46,579 bases of DNA from a virus: positions 1 through 46,579 of the IMG/VR virus record IMGVR_UViG_3300037189_006714; one strand, written 5' to 3'. Of the stretch, positions 7,087-25,399 are shown piece after piece. Under the pieces are notes generated by a model. It searched no databases. It was not told where the DNA came from and was given only the letters and a program-made list of their open reading frames with translations. The position numbers were made by a program, and so were the translations under genes. Positions within the stretch are counted from its first letter, which is position 1, and each line of letters opens with the position of its first letter.

Positions 7087-7118
7087 ATACACATATTATT
7101 AGCAATCAAGGAACCCAG

Positions 7119-12076: not shown

Positions 12077-12107
12077 ATTAACTATACACACACTATGAGA
12101 TCACACT

Positions 12108-12980: not shown

Positions 12981-13004
12981 ATGCCAAAATAGGCGAGATT
13001 TTGG

Positions 13005-13033
13005 TTGACGGCTAGCAGCAGCGAGAGTATAAT
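13005..13033 (+). promoter_or_regulatory. Early-type sigma70 promoter
   Basis: TTGACG (13005-13010), 17-base spacer, TATAAT (13028-13033), followed by AAAGGAGCGCAAC before ATG 13061. Confidence 0.85.
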
Positions 13034-13060
13034 AGTGGCTTACTAACAAAGGAGCGCAAC

Positions 13061-13414
13061 ATGTACAAGATCACAGCAATGCTGCCCACAGCAGGCGACG
13101 GCTACTGGAGCAACAAATCTAAGACAGTCCGTGTCACAGGGCTAGCTGTCACCTACGAAAACGACGAAGGTGACTTCGGCGAGCTTTGTGCTTACTTTGA
13201 CACAAAGACGTGGTCTGTCAAGCGAGACGGGCTTATATACACAGACAGCCAGTTCTTAGACGATCTAAGAGCTACGCTAGCGAGCATGGGGCTAGCAGCT
13301 GGCGACGTCGACTACAGCGAGCAGGGCATGCAGGGAGACGATTACGTGTCGCTGGATGTAGGCGAGAAATTTTTAAAAAGTTGGCATAAAGTGGTTGACA
13401 AGGTCGCTGCTTGA
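13061..13414 (+). CDS. Conserved-type phage protein, unknown
   Basis: A 117-residue soluble acidic protein (YWSNKSKTVRVTG, LCAYFDTKTWSVKRDGLIYTD). The alternating pattern suggests a beta-rich fold. It has its own promoter and a GGAGCG site. Its last codons (VVDKVAA) contain the -35 box of the next promoter. Not recognised. Confidence 0.7.
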   Translation: MYKITAMLPTAGDGYWSNKSKTVRVTGLAVTYENDEGDFGELCAYFDTKTWSVKRDGLIYTDSQFLDDLRATLASMGLAAGDVDYSEQGMQGDDYVSLDVGEKFLKSWHKVVDKVAA

Positions 13415-13423
13415 TCGTATAAT
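13395..13423 (+). promoter_or_regulatory. Consensus sigma70 promoter inside a gene end
   Basis: TTGACA (13395-13400), 17-base spacer, TATAAT (13418-13423). The -35 box codes for the Val-Asp-Lys of the preceding protein. Confidence 0.9.
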
Positions 13424-13452
13424 ACACGAACATTAACACAAAGGAGCGAAAG

Positions 13453-13917
13453 ATGGCAACTCGAAGCACTATTGCGCTAGAGCGCGAAGATGGCGTTATC
13501 CAGGTCTACTGCCACTGGGATGGCTACTTGGAGAACAACGGCCGTATCCTTATGGAGCACTATGACACCCCAGCTAAGGTAGCAGAGCTGCTGAGCAATG
13601 GGGACATCAGCTCGCTGCGCCCCACAGTTGGTTGCGCACATCCCTTCAGCTGCTTTGACACGGGCATGAGCACACAGGACTTCGATGCGCTCTACGGCAA
13701 CATGACCACCTACTACGGACGTGATCGTGGCGAGGCTGCTAGCCGTATCAGTATGCGCCGTTATGACAACTTCGATGCTTATCAGCGTGACGCACAGATG
13801 GAAGAGTACAACTATATCATGCGCGAAGGTCAGTGGTTCGTAGAGTACTATGCCACTGGCGGCTGCTTGATGGAGCTCAGCGAGGCTTTCCATAATGAAG
13901 CTGAAATGGCAGATTAG
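13453..13917 (+). CDS. Conserved phage protein with CHWDGYLENNG motif
   Basis: A 154-residue protein opening MATRSTIALEREDG followed by QVYCHWDGYLENNGRIL. I recall this N-terminal block from many phage and some bacterial proteins of unknown function. An AAAGGAGCGAA site precedes it. Rich in aromatic and acidic residues, no membrane segment. The family is confident; the function is unknown. Confidence 0.8.
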   Translation: MATRSTIALEREDGVIQVYCHWDGYLENNGRILMEHYDTPAKVAELLSNGDISSLRPTVGCAHPFSCFDTGMSTQDFDALYGNMTTYYGRDRGEAASRISMRRYDNFDAYQRDAQMEEYNYIMREGQWFVEYYATGGCLMELSEAFHNEAEMAD

Positions 13918-13920
13918 GGG

Positions 13921-13949
13921 TTGACAGGGCTAGCTGCCCTGTGTATAAT
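13921..13949 (+). promoter_or_regulatory. Consensus sigma70 promoter with a dyad in the spacer
   Basis: TTGACA (13921-13926), 17-base spacer, TATAAT (13944-13949). The inverted repeat CAGGGC-N5-GCCCTG (13925-13941) fills the spacer, as an operator might. Confidence 0.9.
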
Positions 13950-13984
13950 ACACACTTAACATTAACTTTCATAGGAGCGAATTT

Positions 13985-15088
13985 ATGGCAGTTATCGAGA
14001 TTCTCGAGGGTCTGTACAAGATCCGAGGCGCTGACACTTCAGTTGCGGGCAAGCGTTTTGAGCTTGTGGATCAGTTCCGCGCTGGTGTAGATGGCGTAGG
14101 CTACGTTACAGTTAACGGAGCATCGTGCCCTGGCTTCCCAGAGCGCAACATCCGGATCCGTTGTAAGGGTCCTAAATCATACACAGTCGTCGAAGGACAA
14201 TTAATGCCCACATATGAACCCACCAAGAGCAAAGAGCCTGAGGGTGTTATGAGCTTGGTACAGAATGCGGTTCCGGATGCTGTCGTCGCTCACGAGACAG
14301 ATGAAGAGATCATTTCACGCACAAAGGCTCGCTTCGAAGTACTGCGTGAGATGACCAAAGCTGTCAAAGAAGGTACTGTACGTGCTATGATTGTCACAGG
14401 CCCTCCAGGGGTTGGTAAAAGTTTTGGTGTTGAAGAAGTGCTGAGCAAGGACGATCTGTTCAACGTGTTGGGGCAACGCAAGCCCAAATATGAGATCGTC
14501 AAGGGCGCAATGTCCGCCGTAGGACTGTATAGCAAGCTCTACAAGTACTCAGAGAAAGGCAACGTTATCGTGTTCGATGACTGCGACTCTGTACTGCTTG
14601 ATGACCTCAGCTTGAACATCCTTAAGGCTGCTTTGGACTCTAGCAAGAAGCGTACCATCTCGTGGAACACGGACTCACGTATACTGCGTTCAGAGGGTGT
14701 GCCTGACAAGTTTGAGTTTAAAGCGGGTGCCATCTTTATCACCAACATCAAGTTCGAGAACGTTCGTAGCAAGAAGCTACAGGACCACTTGGCTGCTTTG
14801 GAATCACGCTGTCACTACGTGGACCTCCAGATGGACACAGAGCGTGAGAAGGTCCTGCGCATCAAGCAGATCGTGTTCGATCCTGAGGCGGGCCAGCAGG
14901 GCATGTTGGACACCTATGATTTCGAAGACTGCGTCAAGGACGAGATCATCGACTACATCATGAGCAATCGTAGCAAGATGCGTGAGCTGAGCCTGCGTAC
15001 TGTACTCAAAGTCGCAGACTTGCGCAAGAGCTTTCCTATGAACTGGAAGGCAATGGCTGAAGTCACTGTTATGAAGAGGGGTGCCTAA
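13985..15088 (+). CDS. AAA+ ATPase
   Basis: A 367-residue AAA+ protein. Residues 1-80 form a beta-rich N-terminal domain, followed by Walker A GPPGVGKS (139-146) and Walker B VIVFDDCD (194-201), then a sensor-1-like FITN. The Walker B Glu is replaced by Asp/Cys (FDDCD), so hydrolysis may differ. It starts from its own promoter with GGAGCGAAT and is coupled to the GcrA-like gene (TAATG). With the MoxR ATPase and the VWA protein downstream it may form an ATPase-driven remodelling system. The exact client is unknown. Confidence 0.85.
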   Translation: MAVIEILEGLYKIRGADTSVAGKRFELVDQFRAGVDGVGYVTVNGASCPGFPERNIRIRCKGPKSYTVVEGQLMPTYEPTKSKEPEGVMSLVQNAVPDAVVAHETDEEIISRTKARFEVLREMTKAVKEGTVRAMIVTGPPGVGKSFGVEEVLSKDDLFNVLGQRKPKYEIVKGAMSAVGLYSKLYKYSEKGNVIVFDDCDSVLLDDLSLNILKAALDSSKKRTISWNTDSRILRSEGVPDKFEFKAGAIFITNIKFENVRSKKLQDHLAALESRCHYVDLQMDTEREKVLRIKQIVFDPEAGQQGMLDTYDFEDCVKDEIIDYIMSNRSKMRELSLRTVLKVADLRKSFPMNWKAMAEVTVMKRGA

Positions 15089-15342
15089 TGCGCGGAGATA
15101 CTTCACCTACATGTACGTGGATCGGCCCTGAGCAGGATCCACTGATACATCACCCTATCCACTACTGTGGTCTGCCCAGCAAGTTGGGCAAGAACTACTG
15201 TGAAGAGCACTACGCCCGGGTCTATATCAAGGGCAGTGCTGTTCGCCGTACGCAGATCGCGAAACTGATCGTTGAGGACAAGAACATGGTAGAAGTTTCT
15301 GTCCGTGACGAAGAACCTAAAGAATTGGAGTTTACTGTATGA
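15088..15342 (+). CDS. GcrA C-terminal-like zinc-motif protein
   Basis: An 84-residue protein in which PTCTWIG, IHYCGLPS and YCEEHYARVY follow the spacing of the Cys/His-rich C-terminal block of alphaproteobacterial GcrA regulators (C-W-P-G, FHFCG, YCxxH..AY). The N-terminal helix-turn-helix of GcrA is absent. In Caulobacter, GcrA binds the sigma70 domain 2 region, so a phage mimic could target host sigma70; that is inference. It is coupled to the AAA+ gene and overlaps the next gene (ATGA). Confidence 0.55.
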   Translation: MRGDTSPTCTWIGPEQDPLIHHPIHYCGLPSKLGKNYCEEHYARVYIKGSAVRRTQIAKLIVEDKNMVEVSVRDEEPKELEFTV

Positions 15343-15539
15343 ACAAGATCTTGATTGGCTTAGGCCTAATCGTAGTGATTCTGGTTCTCCTGATCATTGG
15401 CCCGTTGGTCACGATCTGGAGCCTGAATACCCTGTTCCCCACGCTGGCCATTCCGTACACACTGGAAACTTGGTTTGCTGTGGTGATGCTAGGGGCTGTT
15501 ATCAAGAGCCGAGTTAGCGTTAACAACAAGAATGGTTAA
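15339..15539 (+). CDS. Small inner-membrane protein
   Basis: A 66-residue protein with one strong transmembrane helix (ILIGLGLIVVILVLLIIGPL, from residue 4) and a weaker second hydrophobic segment (TWFAVVMLGAVI, about 43-54). Similar short two-segment membrane proteins occur in T4-like marine phages. It overlaps the GcrA-like gene by 4 bases and ends in a basic tail. Role unknown; holin or transport accessory are possibilities only. Confidence 0.7.
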   Translation: MNKILIGLGLIVVILVLLIIGPLVTIWSLNTLFPTLAIPYTLETWFAVVMLGAVIKSRVSVNNKNG

Positions 15540-15547
15540 CCAGGCTA

Positions 15548-15576
15548 TTGACAACAGAAGTTGCGTGTGTTACTAT
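15548..15576 (+). promoter_or_regulatory. Early-type sigma70 promoter
   Basis: TTGACA (15548-15553), 17-base spacer, TACTAT (15571-15576). The leader contains a CTGTAAAAAACAG hairpin, and the ribosome binding site is AAAGGAAAAGG rather than GGAGCG. Confidence 0.75.
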
Positions 15577-15624
15577 ATTAACATGCTGTAAAAAACAGCT
15601 ACACTTTTATAAAGGAAAAGGCAA

Positions 15625-15897
15625 ATGAAGCGTATCAATCTCGACACTAAAGAAGGCAAGTTGTTCAACGCATTGTTCAACGGCGAGAAGCTTTCTGAAT
15701 CCGCAATTACCAAGCGTTTTGGTATCAAGAATCCATCAGCTACTGTTAGCGACATTCGTTACAAGGGCTTCGCTGTTTACACTCGTAACCGCAAGGCTGG
15801 CAACGGTGTTGAAGTAACTGAGTACGAGATGGGCCGTCCATCACGTGAGATCGTTGCTCTCGGCTACAAGGCCAAGGCAGCAGGCATGACTGTCTAA
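15625..15897 (+). CDS. Winged-helix-like small DNA-binding protein
   Basis: A 90-residue basic protein. The first 45 residues (EGKLFNALFNGEKLSESAITKR and on to PSATVSDIRYKG) read as a helix-turn-helix with a wing, as in conserved T4-like marine-phage proteins. It stands alone between a promoter and a strong terminator, suggesting abundant expression. Its ribosome binding site differs from the family GGAGCGAA. Its 3'UTR carries a sequence complementary to that site (see 15926). A transcription regulator or DNA-organising role is inferred. Confidence 0.75.
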   Translation: MKRINLDTKEGKLFNALFNGEKLSESAITKRFGIKNPSATVSDIRYKGFAVYTRNRKAGNGVEVTEYEMGRPSREIVALGYKAKAAGMTV

Positions 15898-15925
15898 TAG
15901 ACAACAGTTTCAAACAGCTGATCCG

Positions 15926-15934
15926 ATTCGCTCC
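15926..15934 (+). promoter_or_regulatory. 3'UTR element complementary to GGAGCGAAT ribosome sites
   Basis: ATTCGCTCC is the exact reverse complement of GGAGCGAAT, the ribosome binding site of the AAA+ gene at 13985. It sits between the gene end and an intrinsic terminator. A second copy of the ten-base core TTCGCTCCCG lies at 24163-24172. Candidate antisense seed of a 3'UTR-derived small RNA. Confidence 0.4.
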
Positions 15935-15949
15935 CGGGGATGCGTTTGA

Positions 15950-15976
15950 GAAAGGGCCTTAGGGCCCTTTCTTTTT
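15950..15976 (+). terminator. Intrinsic terminator
   Basis: GAAAGGGCC/GGCCCTTTC stem (9 pairs), TTAG loop, then TTTTT. Confidence 0.92.
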
Positions 15977-16042
15977 GACCTCGCCGCCGGCACTCCTGAT
16001 GTTGCATAAAAGCCACACTCCAAACTATCTAGATCTTTTTGG

Positions 16043-16071
16043 TTGACAGCCAATCTAAATAGCAGTATAAT
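16043..16071 (+). promoter_or_regulatory. Consensus sigma70 promoter
   Basis: TTGACA (16043-16048), 17-base spacer, TATAAT (16066-16071), preceded by TCTTTTTGG. Confidence 0.92.
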
Positions 16072-16101
16072 AGACACATATTAGAACATAGGAGCGATAC
16101 T

Positions 16102-16734
16102 ATGCCATTCACAGCTAGCCACGTTTGGAGCCTTGCCGTAGCAGCACAGCGCATCAACGGGGATTACCTCAAAGAAGACGAGTGGTTGGCCAACGCTACT
16201 CCACCCTGCCGCGGACGTGATGCCAACAAGAAGATGGTCAAGCAATGGCTCCGCGAAGGTTCTAACCCCGCAACTGAAGCCGACGTAGCTGCTGCAGCAG
16301 CAGTCAGAGGCTACTTCAACACCTTTCTCATGCGCGAACTCTCGGGCAAGATCAACGACTTTGAACGCACTGCGCTCAGGCTAGCCCAGAAGGACGAGTT
16401 CACTGAGCGTGACCTCTATGATTTCTCCGTGATCGCATGCCTTCCATCAGTGATGACCCGTGATCAGCAGCGCCAGGAGATCCGTAGAGAGATCTACGTG
16501 AGCGAGCAGCTTCAGGGTCAGGTGGGTGAAGAGATCATCGGTTCCATCACTGTGATCAACAGCAAGTTCAACCAGAACTTCAACAAGTACCGCATCGCTG
16601 CTCGTTTGAACGAAAGCTTCGTAGACTTCTGGTTCTCAAAGGAGCTAGCAGGGGAGCTGCGCATCAAGGGCAAGATTAAAGCCCAGCGTGGCGATAAAAC
16701 AACACAACTGAATTACGTCAAAATAATCGGTTGA
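16102..16734 (+). CDS. Conserved-type phage protein, unknown
   Basis: A 210-residue soluble protein. A helical region (1-100) with an Ala run is followed by REIYVSEQLQGQVGEEIIGSI and a basic beta-rich C-terminus (ELRIKGKIKAQRGDKTTQLNYV). The C-terminus reads like a nucleic-acid or protein-binding sheet. It stands as its own transcription unit. The TGA stop lies inside the -35 box of the MoxR promoter. I do not recognise the family. Confidence 0.75.
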   Translation: MPFTASHVWSLAVAAQRINGDYLKEDEWLANATPPCRGRDANKKMVKQWLREGSNPATEADVAAAAAVRGYFNTFLMRELSGKINDFERTALRLAQKDEFTERDLYDFSVIACLPSVMTRDQQRQEIRREIYVSEQLQGQVGEEIIGSITVINSKFNQNFNKYRIAARLNESFVDFWFSKELAGELRIKGKIKAQRGDKTTQLNYVKIIG

Positions 16735-16759
16735 CAGGTGAGGGCTATGTGTGTATAAT
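16731..16759 (+). promoter_or_regulatory. Consensus sigma70 promoter overlapping a stop codon
   Basis: TTGACA (16731-16736), 17-base spacer, TATAAT (16754-16759). The upstream gene's TGA is the middle of TTGACA. Confidence 0.92.
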
Positions 16760-16813
16760 AGACACATAGTTAGAAATAACTGGGCAAAGCAACTTAACTA
16801 GAGAGGTCTTAAT

Positions 16814-17890
16814 ATGAGCGATTCCAACATCCGCACCGTGGGTCCCAAGGGCGCCATGCGAGCTATCCGCCACGCAATCAAGATGCGTCGTCCACTGTTC
16901 CTGTGGGGCCCTCCCGGCATTGGCAAGAGTGATATCGTCAAGCAGATTGGCGATACGGCTAACCGCCCTGTGATTGATATCCGTCTTCCACTTTGGGAGC
17001 CTACGGACATTAAGGGCATTCCTTATTACAACAGTGACCAAGGCGCTATGGTCTGGGCACCCCCAGCAGAGCTTCCTATGGATCCTGATAGCGATGCTAT
17101 CATCTTCTTGGACGAGCTTAACTCTGCTCCTCCGGCTGTCCAGGCTGCGGCCTATCAGCTGGTGCTGAACCGCCGTGTTGGCACATATGTCTTGCCTAAG
17201 GGTGTAGACATTGTAGCGGCAGGCAACCGCGATGGTGACCGTGGTGTTACCTATCGTATGCCTAAGCCACTGGCTAACCGTTTCCTACACTTGGAGATGA
17301 AGCCAGACTTTGATGACTTCCAGGAGTGGGCAGTCATGAACAAGGTCCACGCAGACGTCGTGGGTTACCTGGGCTTTGCCAAGCAGGACTTGTTCGACTT
17401 TGATCCTAAGAGCTCTAGCCATGCTTTCGCAACGCCTCGTTCGTGGTCGTTCGTTAGCGATCTGCTCAGCGATGCTGATGCTGATACAGCCGTGCTCCAG
17501 GACTTGATCGCAGGTGCGGTAGGCGATGGCTTGGCTATCAAGTTTATGGCTCACCGTAAGATCGCAGGCAAGATGCCTAAGGCAATCGACATCCTCGACG
17601 GTAAGGTCAAGGACTTGAGCATCAAGGAAGTGTCTGCGATGTATTCGTTGACTGTGAGCTTGTGCTATGAGCTCAAGGACTTGGCTGACAAGAAGGTCAA
17701 GGGCTGGGATGAGAAGGCCGACTGCTTCTTCCGCTACATGATGGATAACTTCCCAACAGAGCTCGTGGTCATGGGTGCCAAGACTGCTCTTACCAACTAT
17801 GACTTGCCGTTGGACGCTACTAAGATGAAGAACTTCGATGAGTTCCACAAGCGTTTTGGCAAGTATGTTTTAAAGGCTATGGATAATTAA
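16814..17890 (+). CDS. MoxR-family AAA+ ATPase
   Basis: A 358-residue AAA+ ATPase of the MoxR type. Walker A GPPGIGKS is at 32-39, the insert WEPTDIKGIPYY follows, Walker B is IIFLDE (96-101), sensor-1 AAGN is near 148, and an arginine-finger region PKPLANRF follows. MoxR proteins pair with VWA proteins as metal-chelatase-like or protein-remodelling machines; the next gene is such a VWA protein. The ribosome site (AGAGAGG) is not the GGAGCG type. A strong terminator ends the unit, so partner expression is separate. Confidence 0.9.
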   Translation: MSDSNIRTVGPKGAMRAIRHAIKMRRPLFLWGPPGIGKSDIVKQIGDTANRPVIDIRLPLWEPTDIKGIPYYNSDQGAMVWAPPAELPMDPDSDAIIFLDELNSAPPAVQAAAYQLVLNRRVGTYVLPKGVDIVAAGNRDGDRGVTYRMPKPLANRFLHLEMKPDFDDFQEWAVMNKVHADVVGYLGFAKQDLFDFDPKSSSHAFATPRSWSFVSDLLSDADADTAVLQDLIAGAVGDGLAIKFMAHRKIAGKMPKAIDILDGKVKDLSIKEVSAMYSLTVSLCYELKDLADKKVKGWDEKADCFFRYMMDNFPTELVVMGAKTALTNYDLPLDATKMKNFDEFHKRFGKYVLKAMDN

Positions 17891-17906
17891 GACCTCTCCA
17901 TAGCCC

Positions 17907-17947
17907 GGGTGGAGTGCCTGCCCAGGGCCTCCTCCACCCACCTTTTT
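17907..17947 (+). terminator. Intrinsic terminator after the MoxR gene
   Basis: GGGTGGAG/CTCCACCC stem with an internal GCCC/GGGC hairpin, followed by TTTTT. A new promoter starts 9 bases later. Confidence 0.85.
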
Positions 17948-17955
17948 CTTAGGGG

Positions 17956-17984
17956 TTGACAATTTGGGCCGTAGGTGTTATAAT
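17956..17984 (+). promoter_or_regulatory. Consensus sigma70 promoter
   Basis: TTGACA (17956-17961), 17-base spacer, TATAAT (17979-17984), 28 bases before ATG 18012. Confidence 0.92.
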
Positions 17985-18011
17985 AGATACATAAAGTAAG
18001 GAGAGCGAAGT

Positions 18012-19235
18012 ATGTCTTACATGGACCCAATTGTAGAAAAACTCACAACAGCCCGCATCGGACTGCTACTCAAGCAACCGTTCTTTGGCAACATGGCCAC
18101 CCGTATGCGCCTCGTCGATATCACTGATCAAGGTTGGTGTAAGACTGCGGCAACTAACGGCCGTGACTTTATGTATAACAAGGACTTCATCAACAAGCTC
18201 TCAGAGAAGAAGCTGGAGTTCCTGTTCGCACACGAGATCGGACATTGCGTGTTCGATCACTTTGGTCGCGTTGGTAGCCGTGACCGTCAGCTCAGCAACA
18301 TCGCACAAGACTACGCGATCAACCAGATCCTCGTAGACGAGCGTATCGGCGAGAAGATTACTGAAGTTAAGATCTGTCAGGATAACAAGTATCGTGGCTT
18401 GGCCTGGGAAGAGATCTACGATCAACTTTGGGAGAAGGCTGAGAAGATCAGTATGGATGATCTGCTCAAGCAATTGGGTGACCTGCTCGACGAGCACATC
18501 CATGAAGAAGAGGGTGCTGGTGCTGGTGACGGCGACAAAGACGGTAAGGGCGGCAATGGCAAGCCTGTGCTGTCTAAAGAAGAAGCACAACGCATCAAGG
18601 ACGAGATCAAAGAAGCCATGATCCAGAGTGCGGCTGCAGCAGGTGCTGGCAAGACCCCAGCAGGCATCATGCGTATGATCAAAGACTTGACTGAGCCTAA
18701 GATGGACTGGCGTCAGGTGCTCCAGATGAACATCCAGAGCATTATCCGCAACGACTACTCCTTCCAGCGTCCTAATCGCAAGAGCCAGCACAGTGGTGCT
18801 ATCCTGCCAGGCATGAAGAACGATCAGACCATTGACGTGGCTATCGGCATTGACATGTCGGGTTCTATTGGTGATGCTGATGCCAAAATCTTCCTTAGCG
18901 AAGTTAAGGGCATCATGGATCAATACGAGGACTATGCCATTGACATTTGGTGCTTTGACACAGACATCTACAACCACAAGCGTTTCACACACGACGATGG
19001 GGATGCTTTGTTGAGCTATGAGCCAATGGGCGGTGGTGGCACAGACTTTGAAGCCAACTACAACTACATGAAGTCTATCGACCTTGTGCCTAAGAAGTTC
19101 ATTATGTTTACGGACGGTTACCCCTGCGGTAGTTGGGGTGATGAGGACTACTGCGATACTCTGTTTATCGTTAAAGGTAGCAAGAACGAAGCACCGTTCG
19201 GGCAGACTGTGATCTATGATGAAAAGGCTGATTGA
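18012..19235 (+). CDS. Putative metallopeptidase-VWA protein (DUF2201-like)
   Basis: A 407-residue protein in two parts. The N-terminal part has a zinc-protease-like HEIGH motif (74-78), H83 and a conserved AQDYAIN. A Gly/Asp-rich acidic linker lies at 165-185. The C-terminal part is a VWA domain with MIDAS motif DMSGS (281-285), a GGGGTDF and an FTDGYP. DUF2201-type proteins have this order and usually sit beside MoxR ATPases, as here. Possible roles are ATPase-driven remodelling or proteolysis of a host target; neither is shown. It overlaps the methyltransferase-like gene by 20 bases. Confidence 0.88.
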   Translation: MSYMDPIVEKLTTARIGLLLKQPFFGNMATRMRLVDITDQGWCKTAATNGRDFMYNKDFINKLSEKKLEFLFAHEIGHCVFDHFGRVGSRDRQLSNIAQDYAINQILVDERIGEKITEVKICQDNKYRGLAWEEIYDQLWEKAEKISMDDLLKQLGDLLDEHIHEEEGAGAGDGDKDGKGGNGKPVLSKEEAQRIKDEIKEAMIQSAAAAGAGKTPAGIMRMIKDLTEPKMDWRQVLQMNIQSIIRNDYSFQRPNRKSQHSGAILPGMKNDQTIDVAIGIDMSGSIGDADAKIFLSEVKGIMDQYEDYAIDIWCFDTDIYNHKRFTHDDGDALLSYEPMGGGGTDFEANYNYMKSIDLVPKKFIMFTDGYPCGSWGDEDYCDTLFIVKGSKNEAPFGQTVIYDEKAD

Positions 19236-19827
19236 TTGGATCAGGGGTAGGAGTGCCCCGCAGGTAGATCTCGATGCGTTCAGCAGCAGCCAGATAGCTT
19301 CAAAGGCCTGGCTCTGCGAACGCCTTGAGGAGTGCCTCAAAGGTCTGACTCCGCCCGTGGCTGGATACAAGATCTGGATCTTTGCTGGTTGGTATGGAGT
19401 GACTAACTTCATGTTAAGGACCCGTGCTATCGTCCCCGTAGAGTTCGTGCGCAGCATAGACCTAGATCCTACCTGTGAACCTATCGCTGATCGCATCAAC
19501 AAGTTCTGGGAGATCCAGGGCTGGCAGTTCAAAGCCCAGACGGGTGACATCAACAACACAACTTACTTCCACGATAACCCGCACATCATTATAATGACAT
19601 CCGCAGAGCATGTCAAGAGCCGCAAGTGGTTCCAGGATATTCCACGTGGAACCATCGTGGCCATCCAGGGATCTGATCTGGTTATTCCTGATCATGTTAA
19701 TCCCATTAGCAGTGTAGAGCAGCTGAAAGAGGCCTATCCAATGGAGTGCCACTACGAGGGCAGCATTACTTTTAACTACCCTACCCACAGCTTCAACCGT
19801 CACATGATCATAGGAATCAAGCCATAG
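19216..19827 (+). CDS. SAM-methyltransferase-like Rossmann protein
   Basis: A 203-residue protein with a Rossmann-type layout: strand IWIFAGWYGVTNFML (about 53-67), acidic end of strand 2 in VRSIDLDP (about 78-85), and a later GDINN. This resembles class I SAM-dependent methyltransferases; the glycine-rich loop is atypical (AGWYG), so activity is uncertain. The ATG at 19216 lies inside the previous gene. It ends in a TAG embedded in a GGCCCCGCTGC element. Confidence 0.6.
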   Translation: MMKRLIDWIRGRSAPQVDLDAFSSSQIASKAWLCERLEECLKGLTPPVAGYKIWIFAGWYGVTNFMLRTRAIVPVEFVRSIDLDPTCEPIADRINKFWEIQGWQFKAQTGDINNTTYFHDNPHIIIMTSAEHVKSRKWFQDIPRGTIVAIQGSDLVIPDHVNPISSVEQLKEAYPMECHYEGSITFNYPTHSFNRHMIIGIKP

Positions 19828-19844
19828 GCCCCGCTGCTTAGTGG

Positions 19845-19873
19845 TTGACAAACCGGCTAAAGGTTGTTATAAT
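19845..19873 (+). promoter_or_regulatory. Consensus sigma70 promoter
   Basis: TTGACA (19845-19850), 17-base spacer, TATAAT (19868-19873). An AACC/GGTT inverted repeat lies in the spacer. Confidence 0.92.
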
Positions 19874-19898
19874 ATACACATAACTTAAGGAGCGCACC

Positions 19899-20249
19899 AT
19901 GAGATACTACGAATTGGTTATGGAACAACAGCGTGGCCCATACACTGTGATCGTTGACCGTACCTATGAAGACATCCACCCACAAGACTGTTTCGATGAT
20001 AGTTGCTATGATATCAAAGAGATCTGCCGCAAGATTGACATGGGTCTCTTGGAGTGGTTCATGCTGCGCACACGAGTGTTCTATGAAGGCGTAGAGCTGG
20101 CTGAGGAGTTCTTAGGGGGCCTACTCTATGATGATCCTAACGAAGTGCTCACTGATGGGATCGCCGAAGATCAGATCCATCAGGCCCTTGAGAACGCTAA
20201 AAAGGCCGCTGTGGAATACAAACGAAAGTTTGAAATTCTCACAGTGTAA
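19899..20249 (+). CDS. Small acidic phage protein, unknown
   Basis: A 116-residue acidic protein (TYEDIHPQDCFDDSCYDIKE), helical at both ends, no membrane segment. AAGGAGCGCACC precedes the ATG. Not recognised; probably an early host-interaction protein by position. Confidence 0.7.
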   Translation: MRYYELVMEQQRGPYTVIVDRTYEDIHPQDCFDDSCYDIKEICRKIDMGLLEWFMLRTRVFYEGVELAEEFLGGLLYDDPNEVLTDGIAEDQIHQALENAKKAAVEYKRKFEILTV

Positions 20250-20258
20250 ATATATTAT

Positions 20259-20483
20259 ATGAGCAAACTAGAGTTCTTCGCAAGACCATTAGTAGCATTT
20301 GACCCATCCAACAAGCAGCACAGGCGATATTACGTAGATTTCATTGAATACGGTGGATGGGGCAACTGCCCTGTTAGGTTTATATGCCCAGACGAGACGG
20401 GCATGGATTTGATTAGCATGATACAACGGCAACTGCTTCAACACTACGTTGATAGGGAGTTCCGACAGAACAGGAGCAAGTAA
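20259..20483 (+). CDS. Small unknown protein
   Basis: A 74-residue basic protein (FDPSNKQHRRYYVDFIEYGGWG, ICPDETGMD). No Shine-Dalgarno site, and the TATTAT immediately ahead is too close to act as its promoter, so it relies on read-through from 19868. It is coupled to the next gene (TAATG). Confidence 0.6.
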   Translation: MSKLEFFARPLVAFDPSNKQHRRYYVDFIEYGGWGNCPVRFICPDETGMDLISMIQRQLLQHYVDREFRQNRSK

Positions 20484-20851
20484 TGGAGATCGGATTAGCT
20501 TTATTCATTGGATTGTACGTGGGATGGAAGGCAGCTCACATCTGGACCAAGCATGTGATCAACGAGCTGCTGGAAGAGGCAGGGCTAACCCCGCAGCAGC
20601 GTAAAGAACTCAAGGCCTACTGCGATGAAAAGGTCGCAGCAGAGACTGAAGAAGATCAACGTGATATCATCGAGGTCAAGATCGAGAAGATTGGCGATGT
20701 CATGTACGCCTACACTGTTGACGAAGATCAGTTCATGGCTCAGGGCAGCACGATCGAGCAACTGTTCCAAGCCCTACAAGAACGCTACAAAGAAATCCGT
20801 TTTGTTGTAAGAGAGCAACACGGTGCTAAATTCCTGAAAGAATCCGCTTGA
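20483..20851 (+). CDS. Membrane-anchored small protein
   Basis: A 122-residue protein with an N-terminal signal-anchor (IGLALFIGLYVGWKAAHIW), an acidic linker and a C-terminal domain (VMYAYTVDEDQFMAQG..) resembling small antitoxin-like beta-alpha folds. The TGA stop lies in the -35 box of the next promoter. Function not recognised. Confidence 0.65.
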   Translation: MEIGLALFIGLYVGWKAAHIWTKHVINELLEEAGLTPQQRKELKAYCDEKVAAETEEDQRDIIEVKIEKIGDVMYAYTVDEDQFMAQGSTIEQLFQALQERYKEIRFVVREQHGAKFLKESA

Positions 20852-20876
20852 CAACCCGTCCAAAAGGCCGTACAAT
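20848..20876 (+). promoter_or_regulatory. Sigma70 promoter giving a leaderless transcript
   Basis: TTGACA (20848-20853), 17-base spacer, TACAAT (20871-20876). The predicted start falls at 20883, one base before ATG 20884, so the mRNA would have no leader. Confidence 0.75.
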
Positions 20877-20883
20877 ACGGACT

Positions 20884-21099
20884 ATGGATACAAACTTTTA
20901 CATCAAATGGATAGCATGTGCTATCACTCTCGCTGGTGCGCTGTGTACCTCACTGCGCATCGATCCCATCAACATCTATCTACTCAACGGCGGTGCGCTG
21001 CTGTACTTGATCTGGTCGCTGAGGATCCGTGAATGGAACCTAGTGGCGATCAACGGTGGGCTGCTCACAATCTACGGAGTGGGACTGTTTTTTGGTTGA
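20884..21099 (+). CDS. Small multi-helix membrane protein
   Basis: A 71-residue hydrophobic protein with three short membrane segments (WIACAITLAGALC, YLLNGGALLYLIWSL, INGGLLTIYGVGLFFG). ATG 20884 directly follows a promoter with no ribosome binding site, so leaderless translation is implied. Proteins of this pattern recur in T4-like marine phages. The TGA is within the next -35 box. Function unknown. Confidence 0.75.
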   Translation: MDTNFYIKWIACAITLAGALCTSLRIDPINIYLLNGGALLYLIWSLRIREWNLVAINGGLLTIYGVGLFFG

Positions 21100-21124
21100 C
21101 AGCATGAGTTTTTGGTCGTATAAT
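21096..21124 (+). promoter_or_regulatory. Consensus sigma70 promoter overlapping a stop codon
   Basis: TTGACA (21096-21101), 17-base spacer, TATAAT (21119-21124). Confidence 0.92.
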
Positions 21125-21150
21125 ACACACACAAACTGAAAGGAGCTTTT

Positions 21151-21312
21151 ATGGCAAAGTGGATTGTAATTCTAGCATTGATCATCCTCGCACCCATGTT
21201 CGTGATTAACTTGGTTACGGGTACGGTCAACTTCGTTTCTAACCAGGGTAAGGCTTTGGTCACTGAAGTGGCTAAAGAGGCATCCAAGACAGTCAAGGAG
21301 GCAGGACAATGA
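21151..21312 (+). CDS. Small membrane protein (53 aa)
   Basis: MAKWIVILALIILAPMFVI forms a membrane anchor, followed by a helical Lys/Glu tail (VTEVAKEASKTVKEAGQ). AAAGGAGC precedes ATG 21151, and the end overlaps the next gene (ATGA). It resembles small inner-membrane peptides rather than a holin, but this is not decisive. Confidence 0.7.
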   Translation: MAKWIVILALIILAPMFVINLVTGTVNFVSNQGKALVTEVAKEASKTVKEAGQ

Positions 21313-21554
21313 GCTATTTCAAGAACTTCGAAGATCCTTTCTATGATGATGATGGGCAGCTGGTCGATGAAGACGGCCCTATGCTCGAAGACGAGGTCAT
21401 GGACCTGATCGCGATCTACGGCACGGATGAAGAGGCTGTTATGATGATCGCTGAAGAGCTCCAGATCACGATCGGTGAGGTGCGCAGCGTGATCTCCAGC
21501 CTGGGATTCGAAGTCAAAGACTACGATGACGAATTCCTTATCGACGAGGCATAA
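21309..21554 (+). CDS. Very acidic small protein
   Basis: An 81-residue protein, almost a third Asp/Glu (DPFYDDDGQLVDEDG, YDDEFLIDEA). DNA-mimic-like charge, which is often seen in phage anti-restriction or polymerase-binding proteins; that role is inference. Coupled to the membrane protein gene and likely with it in one transcript. Confidence 0.65.
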   Translation: MSYFKNFEDPFYDDDGQLVDEDGPMLEDEVMDLIAIYGTDEEAVMMIAEELQITIGEVRSVISSLGFEVKDYDDEFLIDEA

Positions 21555-21560
21555 TTTCGG

Positions 21561-21589
21561 TTGACGGGCTGTGTTGCTCGTGCTATTGT
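21561..21589 (+). promoter_or_regulatory. Sigma70-like promoter
   Basis: TTGACG (21561-21566), 17-base spacer, TATTGT (21584-21589); the weakest of the array. Confidence 0.65.
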
Positions 21590-21618
21590 TAATCACAGTA
21601 GCAGCAAGGGAGACACAA

Positions 21619-21774
21619 ATGTTCGAATATGTCATCCAGGTCCGCAAGAACGGGCGCAAGACGAAACGCATCGTTCTCAAGGGCTACTCAGGGAACGCAG
21701 CAATGGACGAGCTGAAGTGGCTCCGGAAGAGCAAATACAAGCCCGAACTGGGCTACGAGCTGGAGCTGCTGTAG
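21619..21774 (+). CDS. Small basic protein (51 aa)
   Basis: Starts MFEYVIQVRKNGRKTKRIVL, strongly basic, likely a single beta-sheet with a helix (two strands then AMDELKWLRKS). AAGGGAGA precedes the ATG. It ends in a terminator. Nucleic-acid binding is plausible but unshown. Confidence 0.65.
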   Translation: MFEYVIQVRKNGRKTKRIVLKGYSGNAAMDELKWLRKSKYKPELGYELELL

Positions 21775-21781
21775 AGTTTAG

Positions 21782-21815
21782 GGGGGTGTTGCAGAAATGC
21801 CACACTCCCTTTTTT
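21782..21815 (+). terminator. Intrinsic terminator
   Basis: GGGGGTGT/ACACTCCC stem (one G-U pair) with loop containing AGAAAT, then TTTTTT. Confidence 0.8.
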
Positions 21816-21829
21816 CCTGATCTTTTTGG

Positions 21830-21858
21830 TTGACAACTGCTGTTAGCCCTGCTATTAT
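21830..21858 (+). promoter_or_regulatory. Sigma70 promoter
   Basis: TTGACA (21830-21835), 17-base spacer, TATTAT (21853-21858), directly after a TCTTTTTGG tract shared with other cassettes. Confidence 0.88.
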
Positions 21859-21882
21859 ACACACATAACAAAGGAGCACAAG

Positions 21883-22017
21883 ATGAAGCGTTACCGTTTT
21901 ATTATGGACTGCCAGGCTACTTACAATGTGATCGCACGTGACTTCCGCGAGGCATGTGCGCAATGGGAGCGTTTCGGCTTAGATCCTCGCAACATAGCTG
22001 CTGTGGAGATCCGCTGA
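21883..22017 (+). CDS. 44-aa protein
   Basis: MKRYRFIMDCQATYNVIARD..., a basic alpha/beta microprotein. AAAGGAGCAC precedes ATG 21883. The stop overlaps the next ATG (TGATG). Confidence 0.65.
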   Translation: MKRYRFIMDCQATYNVIARDFREACAQWERFGLDPRNIAAVEIR

Positions 22018-22211
22018 TGTTTTGGCTGATCATAGCACTCTATCAAGGCCCTACCTACGTGGATAAGGTCGTGGTGCCCTACCCCGGAGAGGCTGCATGC
22101 GTAGCGGCTGCGAAGAAAGCTGAAGCGGATCGCCTGAATGTCAAAGCGATCTGCGTAAGCGATGAGCACATTAAGGGTCGTAAGAAAGACCCTAAGGTCA
22201 GTATGGATTAA
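22017..22211 (+). CDS. Small protein with hydrophobic start
   Basis: A 64-residue protein (MFWLIIALYQGPTYVDK...), coupled to the 44-aa gene. A beta-rich N-terminus and a helix rich in Ala/Lys with two Cys. Not recognised. The basic tail (GRKKDPK) is noted. Confidence 0.65.
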   Translation: MFWLIIALYQGPTYVDKVVVPYPGEAACVAAAKKAEADRLNVKAICVSDEHIKGRKKDPKVSMD

Positions 22212-22222
22212 CAACAAATTGG

Positions 22223-22251
22223 TTGACAGCCCAGCAGATTGGTGCTATACT
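22223..22251 (+). promoter_or_regulatory. Sigma70 promoter
   Basis: TTGACA (22223-22228), 17-base spacer, TATACT (22246-22251). Confidence 0.9.
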
Positions 22252-22279
22252 ACACACATAACTTAAAGGAGCGAGTGAA

Positions 22280-22480
22280 ATGGAAAAGTCAGGAACATTT
22301 TTGTTTATCGTCGGACTGTTGATCACAATCTTTGGCGTGGGCGGTGTAGAGCAAAGCGTCACTGATCTAGTCATGATACAGTGTTTTGCTGTTGCGATGG
22401 TGGGCTGTATGGTCATGGGCTGTGGCGTGAGCATGATCAACTTGAGCCGTGAAGATTACTACAAGAATCAAAAATACTGA
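22280..22480 (+). CDS. Small membrane protein with two helices
   Basis: A 66-residue protein with segments FLFIVGLLITIFGVGG and MIQCFAVAMVGCMVMGCGVS separated by a short polar turn, plus a charged tail (REDYYKNQKY). AAAGGAGCGAG precedes it. Role unknown. Confidence 0.7.
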   Translation: MEKSGTFLFIVGLLITIFGVGGVEQSVTDLVMIQCFAVAMVGCMVMGCGVSMINLSREDYYKNQKY

Positions 22481-22481
22481 T

Positions 22482-22670
22482 ATGAAACCAGAAGAACTGC
22501 GTTACCTAGAGAGAGCCATTGAAGCTCTCAAAGATCCTGAGCTGACCCAGATGGCCGAAGCCAAGATCCTTAGGACTGTGAGCCAGATCAGTGATCGAGC
22601 CAGCCGAGAGATTGAACAGAAATTGGTTGACAAGGTCACTGATTCGTTGTATAATACTGATAACAAATAA
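22482..22670 (+). CDS. Small helical protein whose end holds a promoter
   Basis: A 62-residue helical protein (MKPEELRYLERAIEALKDPE...), starting 1 base after the previous stop. Its last residues (LVDKVTDSLYNTDNK) are coded by the promoter at 22627-22655. The protein tail and the promoter are constrained by the same bases. Confidence 0.65.
   Translation: MKPEELRYLERAIEALKDPELTQMAEAKILRTVSQISDRASREIEQKLVDKVTDSLYNTDNK
22627..22655 (+). promoter_or_regulatory. Consensus sigma70 promoter inside a coding end
   Basis: TTGACA (22627-22632), 17-base spacer, TATAAT (22650-22655), entirely within the 62-aa gene. Confidence 0.92.
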
Positions 22671-22681
22671 GGAGCGAACTT

Positions 22682-23308
22682 ATGCCAAATTGGTGCAACA
22701 ATCATCTTACACTCACCCACGAGGACCCTGCTATGATCCAGCGTGCCTATGACGCACTGGAGCGTGGAGAGTTCTTACAAGAGTTCATTCCAGTGCCTGA
22801 GTCTTTGAAGATCGTGGCGGGGTTCGTTGGTGATCCTGAGGAACAGCGTAAGCTGGAGGAAGCCACGCAACGCAATGTGGAAGTCCACGGTTATGGCAAC
22901 TGGTATGACTACTGCGTGGGCGAGTGGGGAACCAAGTGGGACACAGGTGAGTCAGGCAACAATGACATCCACCCAGATGGCCAGATGTTGACCGCAGGCT
23001 TTGACACAGCGTGGGCTCCACCCATCCTAGCCTATGAGAAGCTGGAGAAGTTGGGCTTTGGTGTCACTGCTTTCTACTATGAACCCGGCATGGCCTTCTG
23101 CGGAGTCTACGAGGACGGCTCGGACAACTTCTACGAGATCGGCGGTATGAAGTCAGACCAGGTAGCCAACGAGATCCCCGCAGAGCTTGATGACATGTTC
23201 AGCATCGTAGAACAGATGCAGGAATACGAGCTAGCCGAGCAGGAAGAGCTCACTGAGTGGATCAAGGAAGGAGTCGCGGCTCGTGAAGCTGGCCAAACTG
23301 GATCGTAG
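22682..23308 (+). CDS. Api92-like ferredoxin-fold protein (DUF1281 type)
   Basis: A 208-residue protein opening MPNWCNNHLTLTH, the signature start of Api92/DUF1281-type proteins found on phages and plasmids. It has an acidic central section (FYYEPGMAFCGVY) and a helical Glu-rich C-terminus. AAGGAGCGAAC precedes the ATG. Function unknown for the family. The next gene starts inside its end. Confidence 0.75.
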   Translation: MPNWCNNHLTLTHEDPAMIQRAYDALERGEFLQEFIPVPESLKIVAGFVGDPEEQRKLEEATQRNVEVHGYGNWYDYCVGEWGTKWDTGESGNNDIHPDGQMLTAGFDTAWAPPILAYEKLEKLGFGVTAFYYEPGMAFCGVYEDGSDNFYEIGGMKSDQVANEIPAELDDMFSIVEQMQEYELAEQEELTEWIKEGVAAREAGQTGS

Positions 23309-23609
23309 GCACAACGGCTATGGTCTCTGGACACACCGTCTTGAATTCACCAATGGCTGGAGTGACAGGAACAACAGGCTGGTCCGCACCGATCTCATAC
23401 GCAACTTCTATGAGTGTCGCAAGTGGTTATCCGACCAGTTCGGACCAGGCTGTTTCCAGTTCGAAGGGCGACTGCTCGTTGATCAGCACGTGGAGCTACC
23501 CGTATGGGCCTACGATGAAGCAGGATTCGTCTACGTCCGTGGGGAAGCAGCTAGCATGTTGGCCCTGAGCATTGAACGATTCAAGAGGAGATACAGTGAG
23601 AACCCTTAA
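23283..23609 (+). CDS. Small unknown protein with GTG start
   Basis: A 108-residue basic protein (KLDRRHNGYGLWTHRLEF). Start GTG 23283 is supported by GGAAGGAG eight bases ahead. It overlaps the previous gene by 26 bases and the next by 14. Aromatic-rich; possibly DNA- or RNA-binding. Confidence 0.6.
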   Translation: MKLAKLDRRHNGYGLWTHRLEFTNGWSDRNNRLVRTDLIRNFYECRKWLSDQFGPGCFQFEGRLLVDQHVELPVWAYDEAGFVYVRGEAASMLALSIERFKRRYSENP

Positions 23610-23802
23610 GTACGTGATTACGTTTGAGTTGGGCGGTCCAGGTGAACTGGATCAGGCCCGAGTCAACGAGATGGTTGATCTAGCCATCCAAGATCTGATC
23701 TATGACGACGAGTTCATCGGCGCCTTAGATGAGAAAGTCAGCGTCAGCAGCACGGTGACGGCAATTTTGGACAATCAAACGGTTGACCAAAAGCAAAAGT
23801 GA
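23596..23802 (+). CDS. Small protein with GTG start
   Basis: A 68-residue protein (start GTG 23596, AAGAGGAG ahead). A beta-alpha-beta pattern (YVITFELGG, MVDLAIQDLIYDD, VSSTVTAIL). The tail (TVDQKQK) contains the TTGACC -35 box of the next promoter. I do not recognise it. Confidence 0.6.
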   Translation: MRTLKYVITFELGGPGELDQARVNEMVDLAIQDLIYDDEFIGALDEKVSVSSTVTAILDNQTVDQKQK

Positions 23803-23811
23803 TAGTATACT
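23783..23811 (+). promoter_or_regulatory. Sigma70-like promoter
   Basis: TTGACC (23783-23788), 17-base spacer, TATACT (23806-23811). Confidence 0.75.
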
Positions 23812-23857
23812 ATTAACATGCTCGCAAGAGCTTCACACACACACAGGAGAAGTAAAA

Positions 23858-24157
23858 ATGGCAACTGATAAACTGTTTAGCGTCGCTGGCGTTTCCACCC
23901 AGGCTGGCAAGACCAAGGTTCGTTTCGCGAACGACACCATGCGCATCAAGATCCTGGCCAAGAACGGCCACACCAACATCGAGTTGGTTGATCTTCCACG
24001 CAGCATGACCAAGGGTGAGATCGCCCAGTACATGACCACTAGTGGATTCATGAAGGACAACAAGGATGTACAAGCGGCCATCGCTTACATCGCAAAAAAG
24101 AACCCTGTAGAAGGTTCTAAGGCCACTGCTGCGACAGCAGAGGCAGTAGCTGCTTAA
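23858..24157 (+). CDS. Small conserved phage protein, likely highly expressed
   Basis: A 99-residue basic protein (MATDKLFSVAGVSTQAGKTK..., RIKILAKNGHTNIELVDLP), with an Ala-rich tail. I recall similar proteins in T4-like marine phages. It is flanked by its own promoter and a strong terminator. Its ribosome site is ACAGGAGAAG, not GGAGCG. A sequence complementary to GGAGCGAAC lies in its 3'UTR. Confidence 0.7.
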   Translation: MATDKLFSVAGVSTQAGKTKVRFANDTMRIKILAKNGHTNIELVDLPRSMTKGEIAQYMTTSGFMKDNKDVQAAIAYIAKKNPVEGSKATAATAEAVAA

Positions 24158-24161
24158 TTCG

Positions 24162-24170
24162 GTTCGCTCC
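24162..24170 (+). promoter_or_regulatory. Second 3'UTR element complementary to the phage ribosome site
   Basis: GTTCGCTCC is the reverse complement of GGAGCGAAC, the ribosome site of the gene at 22682. It lies 5 bases after the stop and upstream of a strong terminator, as at 15926. The two 3'UTRs share ten identical bases (TTCGCTCCCG). Confidence 0.4.
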
Positions 24171-24192
24171 CGATAAATTACGCAGCACTTAG

Positions 24193-24225
24193 GGCACTGT
24201 TGTAGAAATGCAACAGTGCCTTTTT
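24193..24225 (+). terminator. Intrinsic terminator
   Basis: GGCACTGTTG/CAACAGTGCC stem (10 pairs), loop TAGAAATG, then TTTTT. Confidence 0.95.
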
Positions 24226-24239
24226 CTTGATCTTTTTGG

Positions 24240-24268
24240 TTGACAGATTGGACAGAGACTGCTATACT
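24240..24268 (+). promoter_or_regulatory. Sigma70 promoter
   Basis: TTGACA (24240-24245), 17-base spacer, TATACT (24263-24268), 15 bases after the terminator T-run. Confidence 0.9.
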
Positions 24269-24296
24269 GTGTATACACAATTAAGGAGCGGACAAC

Positions 24297-24458
24297 ATGC
24301 TAGTACCAGCACAAATACAACTAATCCAGGAAGCCATAGCTCAAATCGAACAAGCTAATGCGGACATACAGTTTGCCCTTCCCGCAGGAGATCAGTGCTA
24401 TCGCCTACACAGCCGTTTATCCGATGTAGTAGAAGAACTAGAACTCTTGTTAGCCTAA
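24297..24458 (+). CDS. 53-aa helical protein
   Basis: MLVPAQIQLIQEAIAQIEQA..., two amphipathic helices around a PAGDQCYR turn. AAGGAGCGGAC precedes ATG 24297. Not recognised. Confidence 0.65.
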   Translation: MLVPAQIQLIQEAIAQIEQANADIQFALPAGDQCYRLHSRLSDVVEELELLLA

Positions 24459-24479
24459 CGCCCGCAAGGGCCACACGCT

Positions 24480-24620
24480 ATGGAATACACCGTGATCTAC
24501 CCCTCGGGGCAGCAGCAGAAGTTCTACATACGATCAGTAGCTGAACTCTACGCCCGATTAAACGGGGGCAGAATCGTTGGTCGCCCTGACTTGAAATTGG
24601 TTGACAAACGGGCAGCGTGA
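24480..24620 (+). CDS. 46-aa protein whose end holds a promoter
   Basis: MEYTVIYPSGQQQKFYIRSV..., a small beta-alpha protein. A GCCCGCAAGGGC hairpin and AAGGG precede the ATG. The tail LVDKRAA covers the -35 box at 24601. Confidence 0.6.
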   Translation: MEYTVIYPSGQQQKFYIRSVAELYARLNGGRIVGRPDLKLVDKRAA

Positions 24621-24629
24621 TCGTACAAT
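24601..24629 (+). promoter_or_regulatory. Sigma70 promoter inside a coding end
   Basis: TTGACA (24601-24606), 17-base spacer, TACAAT (24624-24629). Confidence 0.88.
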
Positions 24630-24656
24630 ATACACATATTAACAGCAAGGAGCGAA

Positions 24657-24899
24657 ATGATGCTAGAACAACTGGACGCACAAATCGACGCAATGGAAAT
24701 CACAATCCGCAGCATGAACCTGGGCCGACGTGAGAGACAGATCATCGACAGACTCTACGAGATCTATAGCCTGGCTGAAGCTGCTGTGAATCAGCCCATG
24801 AAGCGTGTAAAGGTGCTGACAACTGGCGAAGAGATTGAGATCCCCGTGGACACCCCTCGCTGCTGCGATCCATCAACAGAACTTTATTGGTCAATGTGA
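24657..24899 (+). CDS. Small helical protein, unknown
   Basis: An 80-residue protein with an N-terminal coiled helix (MLEQLDAQIDAMEITIRSMN) and a C-terminal DTPRCCDPS segment. AAGGAGCGAA lies directly before ATGATG, so the second ATG (24660) may be the true start. Confidence 0.65.
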   Translation: MMLEQLDAQIDAMEITIRSMNLGRRERQIIDRLYEIYSLAEAAVNQPMKRVKVLTTGEEIEIPVDTPRCCDPSTELYWSM

Positions 24900-24900
24900 G

Positions 24901-24929
24901 TTGACAGCAACTGAAACTGATCGTATAAT
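24901..24929 (+). promoter_or_regulatory. Consensus sigma70 promoter
   Basis: TTGACA (24901-24906), 17-base spacer, TATAAT (24924-24929). Confidence 0.92.
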
Positions 24930-24956
24930 ACACATACTTTAACAAAGGAGCGAAAG

Positions 24957-25283
24957 ATGACAAAGCAACTGATGGTAGACGAGATCCGTATCCCCGCGTT
25001 CGCAGCTAAGGCTGATATCGAGCAGAAGAACTATGAAAACGAAAGCCTCTACAGCACTAGCCGTAAAGCACAAGCAGAGCGTTTCGCCGCAGCAGTGCGA
25101 GAGGCTTACCCCCTGAGCACAGTCTACGTGAACTACAGACAGAAGTTCATAGCAGTTAAAGTTGATCGTCCACTGGTGACAGATCGCAATCGCGTACAGG
25201 TAGCGGCTATTGATACCTATGCGTTCGCACAGAAGTATCAGAAGGTTAAGACCCTGAACGCAGTGATCTATCGTATCAAGTAA
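24957..25283 (+). CDS. Small basic protein, unknown
   Basis: A 108-residue protein: helical half (AKADIEQKNYENESLYSTSR) then a beta-rich basic half (VNYRQKFIAVKVDR). AAAGGAGCGAA precedes it. Ends in a double hairpin with terminator. Function not recognised. Confidence 0.65.
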   Translation: MTKQLMVDEIRIPAFAAKADIEQKNYENESLYSTSRKAQAERFAAAVREAYPLSTVYVNYRQKFIAVKVDRPLVTDRNRVQVAAIDTYAFAQKYQKVKTLNAVIYRIK

Positions 25284-25307
25284 GCTGTTGCACAAACGCA
25301 ACACTCT

Positions 25308-25337
25308 AAGGGCAGCTAACAACTGCCCTTTCTTTTT
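25308..25337 (+). terminator. Intrinsic terminator
   Basis: AAGGGCAG/CTGCCCTT stem, 7-base loop, then TCTTTTT. A smaller GTTGC/GCAAC hairpin lies 8 bases upstream. Confidence 0.92.
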
Positions 25338-25339
25338 GG

Positions 25340-25368
25340 TTGACAGACTGCTAGGAGTGCCGTATAAT
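25340..25368 (+). promoter_or_regulatory. Consensus sigma70 promoter
   Basis: TTGACA (25340-25345), 17-base spacer, TATAAT (25363-25368), abutting the terminator T-run. Confidence 0.92.
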
Positions 25369-25399
25369 ACACACATAGTTAGATACAGAGGAGCGAGCA

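Follow-up and report, generated by a model that had tools for sequence, protein, structure and literature searches.

Promoter-early stem-loop (PeSL) cassettes are said to have been described in RB49/phi1 and other T4-type phages by Arbiol in 2010 and Comeau in 2014. PMC4503421 cites promoter early stem loops as mediators of gene shuffling in T4-like phages. The early promoters of T4 are host-sigma70 "over-consensus" promoters that are active without phage factors, carry extra conserved bases around their boxes, and have been described as combined UP, -35, TGn, and -10 types (PMC2988021). In the haloarchaeal virus HGTV-1, most open reading frames (ORFs) in one part of the genome are preceded by a promoter-like motif with an inverted repeat, which its authors liken to PeSLs (PMC3950731). 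Here we analyze an array of sigma70-type promoters in virus record IMGVR_UViG_3300037189_006714, a 46.6-kb fragment of an uncultured jumbo (giant) phage that is referred to below, at its full length of 46,579 nucleotides (nt), as the window. The sites of this array are very probably strong host-sigma70 early promoters. Each would serve one small early gene or group of genes, in a host-takeover region that is rapidly shuffled, and the jumbo phage appears to rely on the host RNA polymerase alone.

Sigma70-type promoters in the window and its relatives

A first-pass annotation of the window had listed 22 promoters with a 17-base spacer. All 22 were found, all on the + strand, with 19 of them (up to 2 mismatches to TTGACA-N17-TATAAT) lying between 13005 and 25368 and the others at 4456, 7058, and 12048. 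Scoring against shuffled sequence, which the annotation had proposed as a check, placed the array far above expectation: from 12,000 to 26,000 on the + strand, exact matches numbered 10, those allowing 1 mismatch 16, and those allowing 2 mismatches 20, compared to 0.005, 0.04, and 0.48, respectively, in 200 dinucleotide shuffles. The whole window held 12 exact matches (11 on the + strand and 1 on the - strand) versus 0.01 in shuffles, and when 1 mismatch was allowed, there were 20 matches at a spacer of 17 and 0 at spacers of 15, 16, 18, or 19. Outside 12 to 26 kb, the single + strand match with at most 1 mismatch was at 7058, before a DNA ligase gene.

The description of these sites as a near-identical array held for approximately 16 of them, which form one homogeneous core class, but not for 4456, 20230, and probably 20848, which fall outside it. 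The core-class motif is WWTTGG-TTGACA-N17-TATAAT-AnACACAT, with the A of CAT as the predicted start (+1). Across the 16 core sites, GG preceded by A/T lies directly 5' of the -35 box in 15, a purine follows the -35 box, and AnACACATA spans -6 to +3. In 166 GG-class promoters of relatives, bases 6 to 8 past the -10 box read C-A-T, with A at the predicted +1 in 81%. Judged on sequence, the sites have the -35/-10 consensus, the spacer of 17, and the purine start approximately 7 nt past the -10 box of a sigma70 promoter, as well as the strong sigma70-like early promoter of a PeSL. Nearly all core sites have 18 to 29 bases between the predicted +1 and the ATG, the ligase gene having 26; the distance is 48 for a MoxR-type ATPase gene. 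Core leaders usually carry the ribosome site AAGGAGCG, mostly as AAGGAG or AGGAGC; the ACACAT start and GGAGCG that had been noted after most sites are common but not universal, with GGAGCG exact in 11/16 leaders.

It is extremely unlikely that the sites lack promoter function and arose by chance, through base composition, or through a reader's choice of boxes. The sites at 4456 and 20230 do resemble chance matches, each lacking both GG and an ACACAT start; they were rejected as class members and are probably chance. One exact minus-strand match also sits inside a gene. For the core class, however, this explanation was ruled out by the shuffles (20 versus 0.48), the single spacer length, the extended motif, the leaders with their constant distance to the ATG, and the recurrence of the promoters at orthologous genes in relatives. 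The minus-strand match itself (19588-19616, inside gene 19216-19827) has neither GG, ACACAT, nor the extended motif and may be a chance match or an antisense promoter.

The DnaB-type helicase of the window shares 53% identity with its counterpart in PA5oct, a Pseudomonas jumbo phage of the Arenbergviridae. Identity reaches 84% with uncultured contigs, of which at least 589 stretches encode relatives. T4-type (Straboviridae-like) affiliation was judged by this helicase alone, for which PA5oct is the nearest isolate, a distant cousin of the window's jumbo-phage clade. When isolated phages were searched for close DNA relatives of the window, a tRNA-Met was the sole match. An independent pattern scan of the virus collection with the full motif found 945 such promoters in 92 stretches, 691 of them with GG. 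Many of the relatives carry the same array, which lies on one strand in a single 16- to 18-kb cluster in genomes of up to 280 kb; in contig G008 (280 kb), 22/24 sites are inside 66.9 to 84.5 kb, and in contig G014 (186 kb), 24/28 are inside 169.8 to 185.6 kb. The genomes of PA5oct (5 scattered sites), Atu_ph07 (0), and Phosso (0) do not carry a GG-type array.

Promoters of orthologous genes were compared across relatives, giving identities of 95% for the -35 box, 90% for the -10 box, 87% for GG, 57% for the start region, 39% for the spacer, and 33% for the upstream flank. Because promoters were picked by their boxes, the box identities are inflated, and GG and the flanks, which are free of that choice, provide the fair comparison. 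The proposal that the boxes are under selection was borne out by these values (90 to 95% versus 39% for the spacer). The accompanying statement that the spacers differ was correct but incomplete, since the spacers are also constrained by the register-locked TTGG/CCAA elements described below. The same comparison bears on whether a single mobile cassette was recently duplicated to give all the copies, which would then be alike through shared descent and not through selection. The copies share TTGG, ACACAT, and GGAGCG outside the core boxes, and related cassettes can spread by recombination. However, both inside one genome and from one genome to the next, the boxes, GG, and CAT start are retained whereas spacers and upstream flanks are near background, with spacer identity at 39% even among orthologous promoters, and we consider recent duplication very improbable.

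Gene order in the array differs among relatives, with a colinear backbone from 13985 to 18012, and the array mixes near-universal genes with several for which the searched loci of relatives contain no homologue, as in the hyperplastic region of small, poorly conserved genes that characterizes PeSLs. The MoxR-type ATPase and VWA-type genes retained their promoters in 7/7 relatives; gene 22682-23308 has a promoter in the window and in 3/12 relatives having the gene. This variation in gene order, with a promoter present or absent before the same gene, may reflect modular shuffling by recombination of the kind ascribed to PeSLs.

Terminators (a hairpin plus T) lie directly upstream of the promoters at 17956, 21830, 24240, and 25340, or 4/16 in the window; the T tract points towards GG-TTGACA or enters it. 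In relatives, 18/163 promoters have a terminator directly upstream, compared to 6 and 1 at control positions. Composite terminator-promoter cassettes therefore exist, as a minority. The first-pass claim that every small early gene or gene pair forms a separate transcription unit was upheld in that each promoter stands right before a small gene or gene group; the separation into units is only partial, and because terminators adjoin a minority of promoters, nested read-through transcripts are likely. A stem within the spacer was found in 1/16 window promoters. Such stems were rejected as a general rule (9/166 versus 3.4 expected), being a minority feature, and flank-spacer stem-loops were rejected as a general feature (12 versus 9.0 in pair-shuffles, not significant).

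Spacer elements and the predicted takeover mechanism

The spacers of relatives carry TTGG at position 3 (42 times), at position 11 (21 times), and elsewhere once. A set of 244 independent spacers contained 74 TTGG, 39 at position 3 and 27 at position 11. CCAA occurs mostly at positions 6 to 8 in both the training and the independent sets, chiefly at 7 to 8 in the latter, and was never combined at 7 to 8 with TTGG at 3 (0 co-occurrences versus 9.0 expected). There is also strong linkage (0.8 bit) between positions 16 and 17, the last two of the spacer. In the window, TTGG is at position 3 in the spacers of 17956 and 24240, at position 11 in those of 7058, 21096, and 22223, and nowhere else. These elements may serve as an operator, contact the polymerase, or reflect DNA shape, and the winged-HTH protein encoded in the array is a candidate reader of them. 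The spacer as a perfect dyad operator was rejected, as a column-shuffle test gave no positive centre.

These patterns raise the possibility, which we regard as doubtful, that besides host sigma70 a phage DNA-binding protein such as the array's winged-HTH reads the TTTTGG before the -35 box and its spacer copy, switching all promoters together. The confinement of TTGG almost entirely to positions 3 and 11 and of CCAA mostly to 6 to 8, the mutual exclusion of position-3 TTGG and CCAA, and the location within the array of a winged-HTH gene under a promoter class of its own are consistent with such a regulon. However, a clear spacer copy was present in 203/376 promoters (about half) and in 5/16 in the window, the dyad signal was not above column composition, and the pattern could stem from polymerase contacts or DNA shape, the binding being a prediction. 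In its broader form, a second recognition layer in which TTTTGG is fixed before the -35 box, is repeated in the spacer in three registers (GG ending at 6 or 14, or CCAA at about 7), and is read by a phage regulator or phage-modified polymerase that would tune or shut off all early promoters in coordination is also on balance unlikely.

Under the favored interpretation of strong early promoters read by the host polymerase, host sigma70 holoenzyme would fire all of the approximately 16 modules together upon DNA entry, with no phage factor needed, and this simultaneous firing would yield many small takeover proteins at high levels and with redundancy. Competition for host polymerase, as had been suggested, is plausible. 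Where an intrinsic terminator lies directly upstream, as for some modules, the two make up a terminator-promoter cassette. Since a promoter and leader come with every gene or gene group, genes could be gained, lost, or moved without disturbing others, in the manner of the PeSL cassettes in phages of the RB49 type. We infer that the promoters are active, that they act early and from the predicted start sites, that they compete with promoters of the host, and that the cassettes recombine. Searches of the window and of seven relatives/records of up to 280 kb, including PA5oct, found neither a multi-subunit RNA polymerase nor sigma70 region 2, which fits reliance on host sigma70 polymerase.

Several points weigh against this interpretation. 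The minority of promoters that adjoin a terminator leaves the units not fully insulated, and the register-locked spacer element is not predicted by plain sigma70 recognition. Promoter function in the clade, like sigma70-type recognition, is predicted from sequence. No phage RNA polymerase was found in relatives of up to 280 kb, but the search for single-subunit enzymes had no working control.

Individual promoters and neighbouring genes

Features below are on the + strand unless marked otherwise, and distances run from the predicted transcription start site (TSS) to the ATG. The outlying core promoter at 7056..7093 (GG-TTGACA-N17-TATAAT-ATACACAT; TSS at approximately 7093) is 26 nt from the DNA ligase gene 7119-8435 (phrog_114). 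A weaker promoter-like site at 12048..12083 (TTGACT-N17-TATACT, 2 mismatches, no GG) precedes a 62-aa lipoprotein-like ORF (12108-12296), and no Shine-Dalgarno sequence was found in the leader of this site. The first core promoter of the cluster, at 13003..13040 (TSS at approximately 13040), is 21 nt from gene 13061-13414 and is in the same place in relatives. That at 13393..13430, also compared with relatives, lies partly within the 3' end of the gene before it and is 23 nt from gene 13453-13917; it is followed by 13919..13956, with the stem ACAGGGC/GCCCTGT within its spacer, 29 nt from the AAA-ATPase gene 13985-15088. Core promoters at 16041..16078 and 16729..16766 lie 24 nt from gene 16102-16734 and 48 nt from the MoxR-type ATPase gene 16814-17890, respectively, and a terminator hairpin plus core promoter at 17905..17991 lies 21 nt from the VWA/metallopeptidase-like gene 18012-19235, the latter two promoters being those present in 7/7 relatives.

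Further downstream, core promoters were located at 19843..19880 (19 nt from gene 19899-20249), 21094..21131 (20 nt from 21151-21312), 22221..22258 (22 nt from 22280-22480), and 22625..22662 (20 nt from 22682-23308, the gene with a promoter in 3/12 relatives). Between the second and third of these, a terminator hairpin whose T tract runs into GG-TTGACA is joined to a core promoter (21780..21865) 18 nt from gene 21883-22017. A terminator with a 14-bp stem and its core promoter (24191..24275) are 22 nt from gene 24297-24458, and the core promoters at 24599..24636 and 24899..24936, the latter with AG replacing GG, are each 21 nt from their genes (24657-24899 and 24957-25283). The last terminator and core promoter, at 25308..25375, are 25 nt from the GIY-YIG gene 25400-25723.

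Two promoters, at 15548 and 23783, form a second class whose predicted transcripts open with a hairpin in leaders of 40 to 42 bases. The first (15548..15624, TTGACA-N17-TACTAT, 42-nt hairpin-first leader) would drive the winged-HTH gene 15625-15897, and a terminator-like hairpin read in the sequence at 15950..15975 lies 3' of that gene, approximately 70 nt upstream of the promoter at 16043. The second (23783..23857, TTGACC-N17-TATACT, 40-nt leader opening with a GCTC-GCAA-GAGC hairpin) would drive a widely conserved 99-aa gene (23858-24157). In relatives, a hairpin is retained at this position although the sequence of its stem differs. The leader hairpin suggests a role in mRNA stabilisation or regulation.

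The site at 20848..20886, which lacks GG and has TACAAT 7 nt before the ATG at 20884, looks like a leaderless-type promoter. A TATAAT-like box exactly 5 to 7 bases before the ATG was also observed at the clade's replication genes (primase and DnaB helicase) and some others, with examples at 31780-31815 (-), 29649-29670 (-), 6185-6196 (+), and 20871-20886 (+). In 1187 upstream regions, this box showed a sharp peak at gap 6 (59 matches, which are not independent because many come from the same two gene families). The placement of these boxes suggests leaderless mRNAs. Among neighbouring genes, the MoxR-type AAA ATPase gene adjoins the DUF2201 metallopeptidase/VWA-like gene (16814-19235), each with its own promoter, and both are highly conserved in the arrays of relatives (73 to 85% identity). 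A 711-aa protein encoded at 42542-44677 (-) has matches to several phage families, including heptose kinase/adenylyltransferase-like and 2OG-Fe(II) oxygenase-like regions.

Comparison with described promoter arrays

The first-pass annotation regarded an array of this kind as unusual for T4-like phages, a view not supported by counts of near-consensus sites: the T4-type phage RB49 has 44 with a spacer of 17, none of them on the opposite strand, and in jumbo phage 121Q, forward sites outnumber reverse ones by 61 to 8. The strand bias of 121Q resembles that of the window, but its sites are scattered genome-wide and lack both GG and the ACACAT start. GAP32 is similar in counts, which are all that was compared (31 versus 5 by strand). 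T4 itself shares host-sigma70 promoters with conserved bases beyond the boxes but has 3 near-exact TTGACA-N17-TATAAT sites. The motif of HGTV-1 is unlike that of the window, being an archaeal TATA-type promoter read by unrelated host machinery.

A large, mostly uncultured jumbo-phage clade thus appears to share the takeover design by which T4-type phages became easy to remodel, with many small genes that each have a maximal promoter of their own. The shared motif offers a simple signature for finding early, host-interaction genes in anonymous phage contigs, and its natural near-consensus promoters, which number in the hundreds and combine locked spacer elements with an unconstrained outer sequence, provide a data set for determining which bases beyond the -35 and -10 boxes are selected.

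The closest likeness is to RB49, whose 44 sites we take, from the published description, to be PeSLs. In both arrays, small genes are preceded by many near-consensus sigma70 promoters that share one strand, with the same discriminator and start (TATACT-ACACACAT in RB49), with some spacer stems (often in RB49) or a terminator next to the promoter, and with modular gain and loss. They differ in that many RB49 spacers are of 16 whereas those of the window are 17 almost without exception, in that GG precedes the -35 box in 2/44 RB49 sites, and in the ribosome site, which is GGAGCG in the window and GGAGAATCA in RB49. The window array is also a compact single cluster with fewer stem-loops and has register-locked TTGG/CCAA elements, which were absent from the RB49 and 121Q spacers when these were checked. 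The array is very probably a genuine takeover device; it resembles the array known from T4-type phages such as RB49 and is not a new principle.

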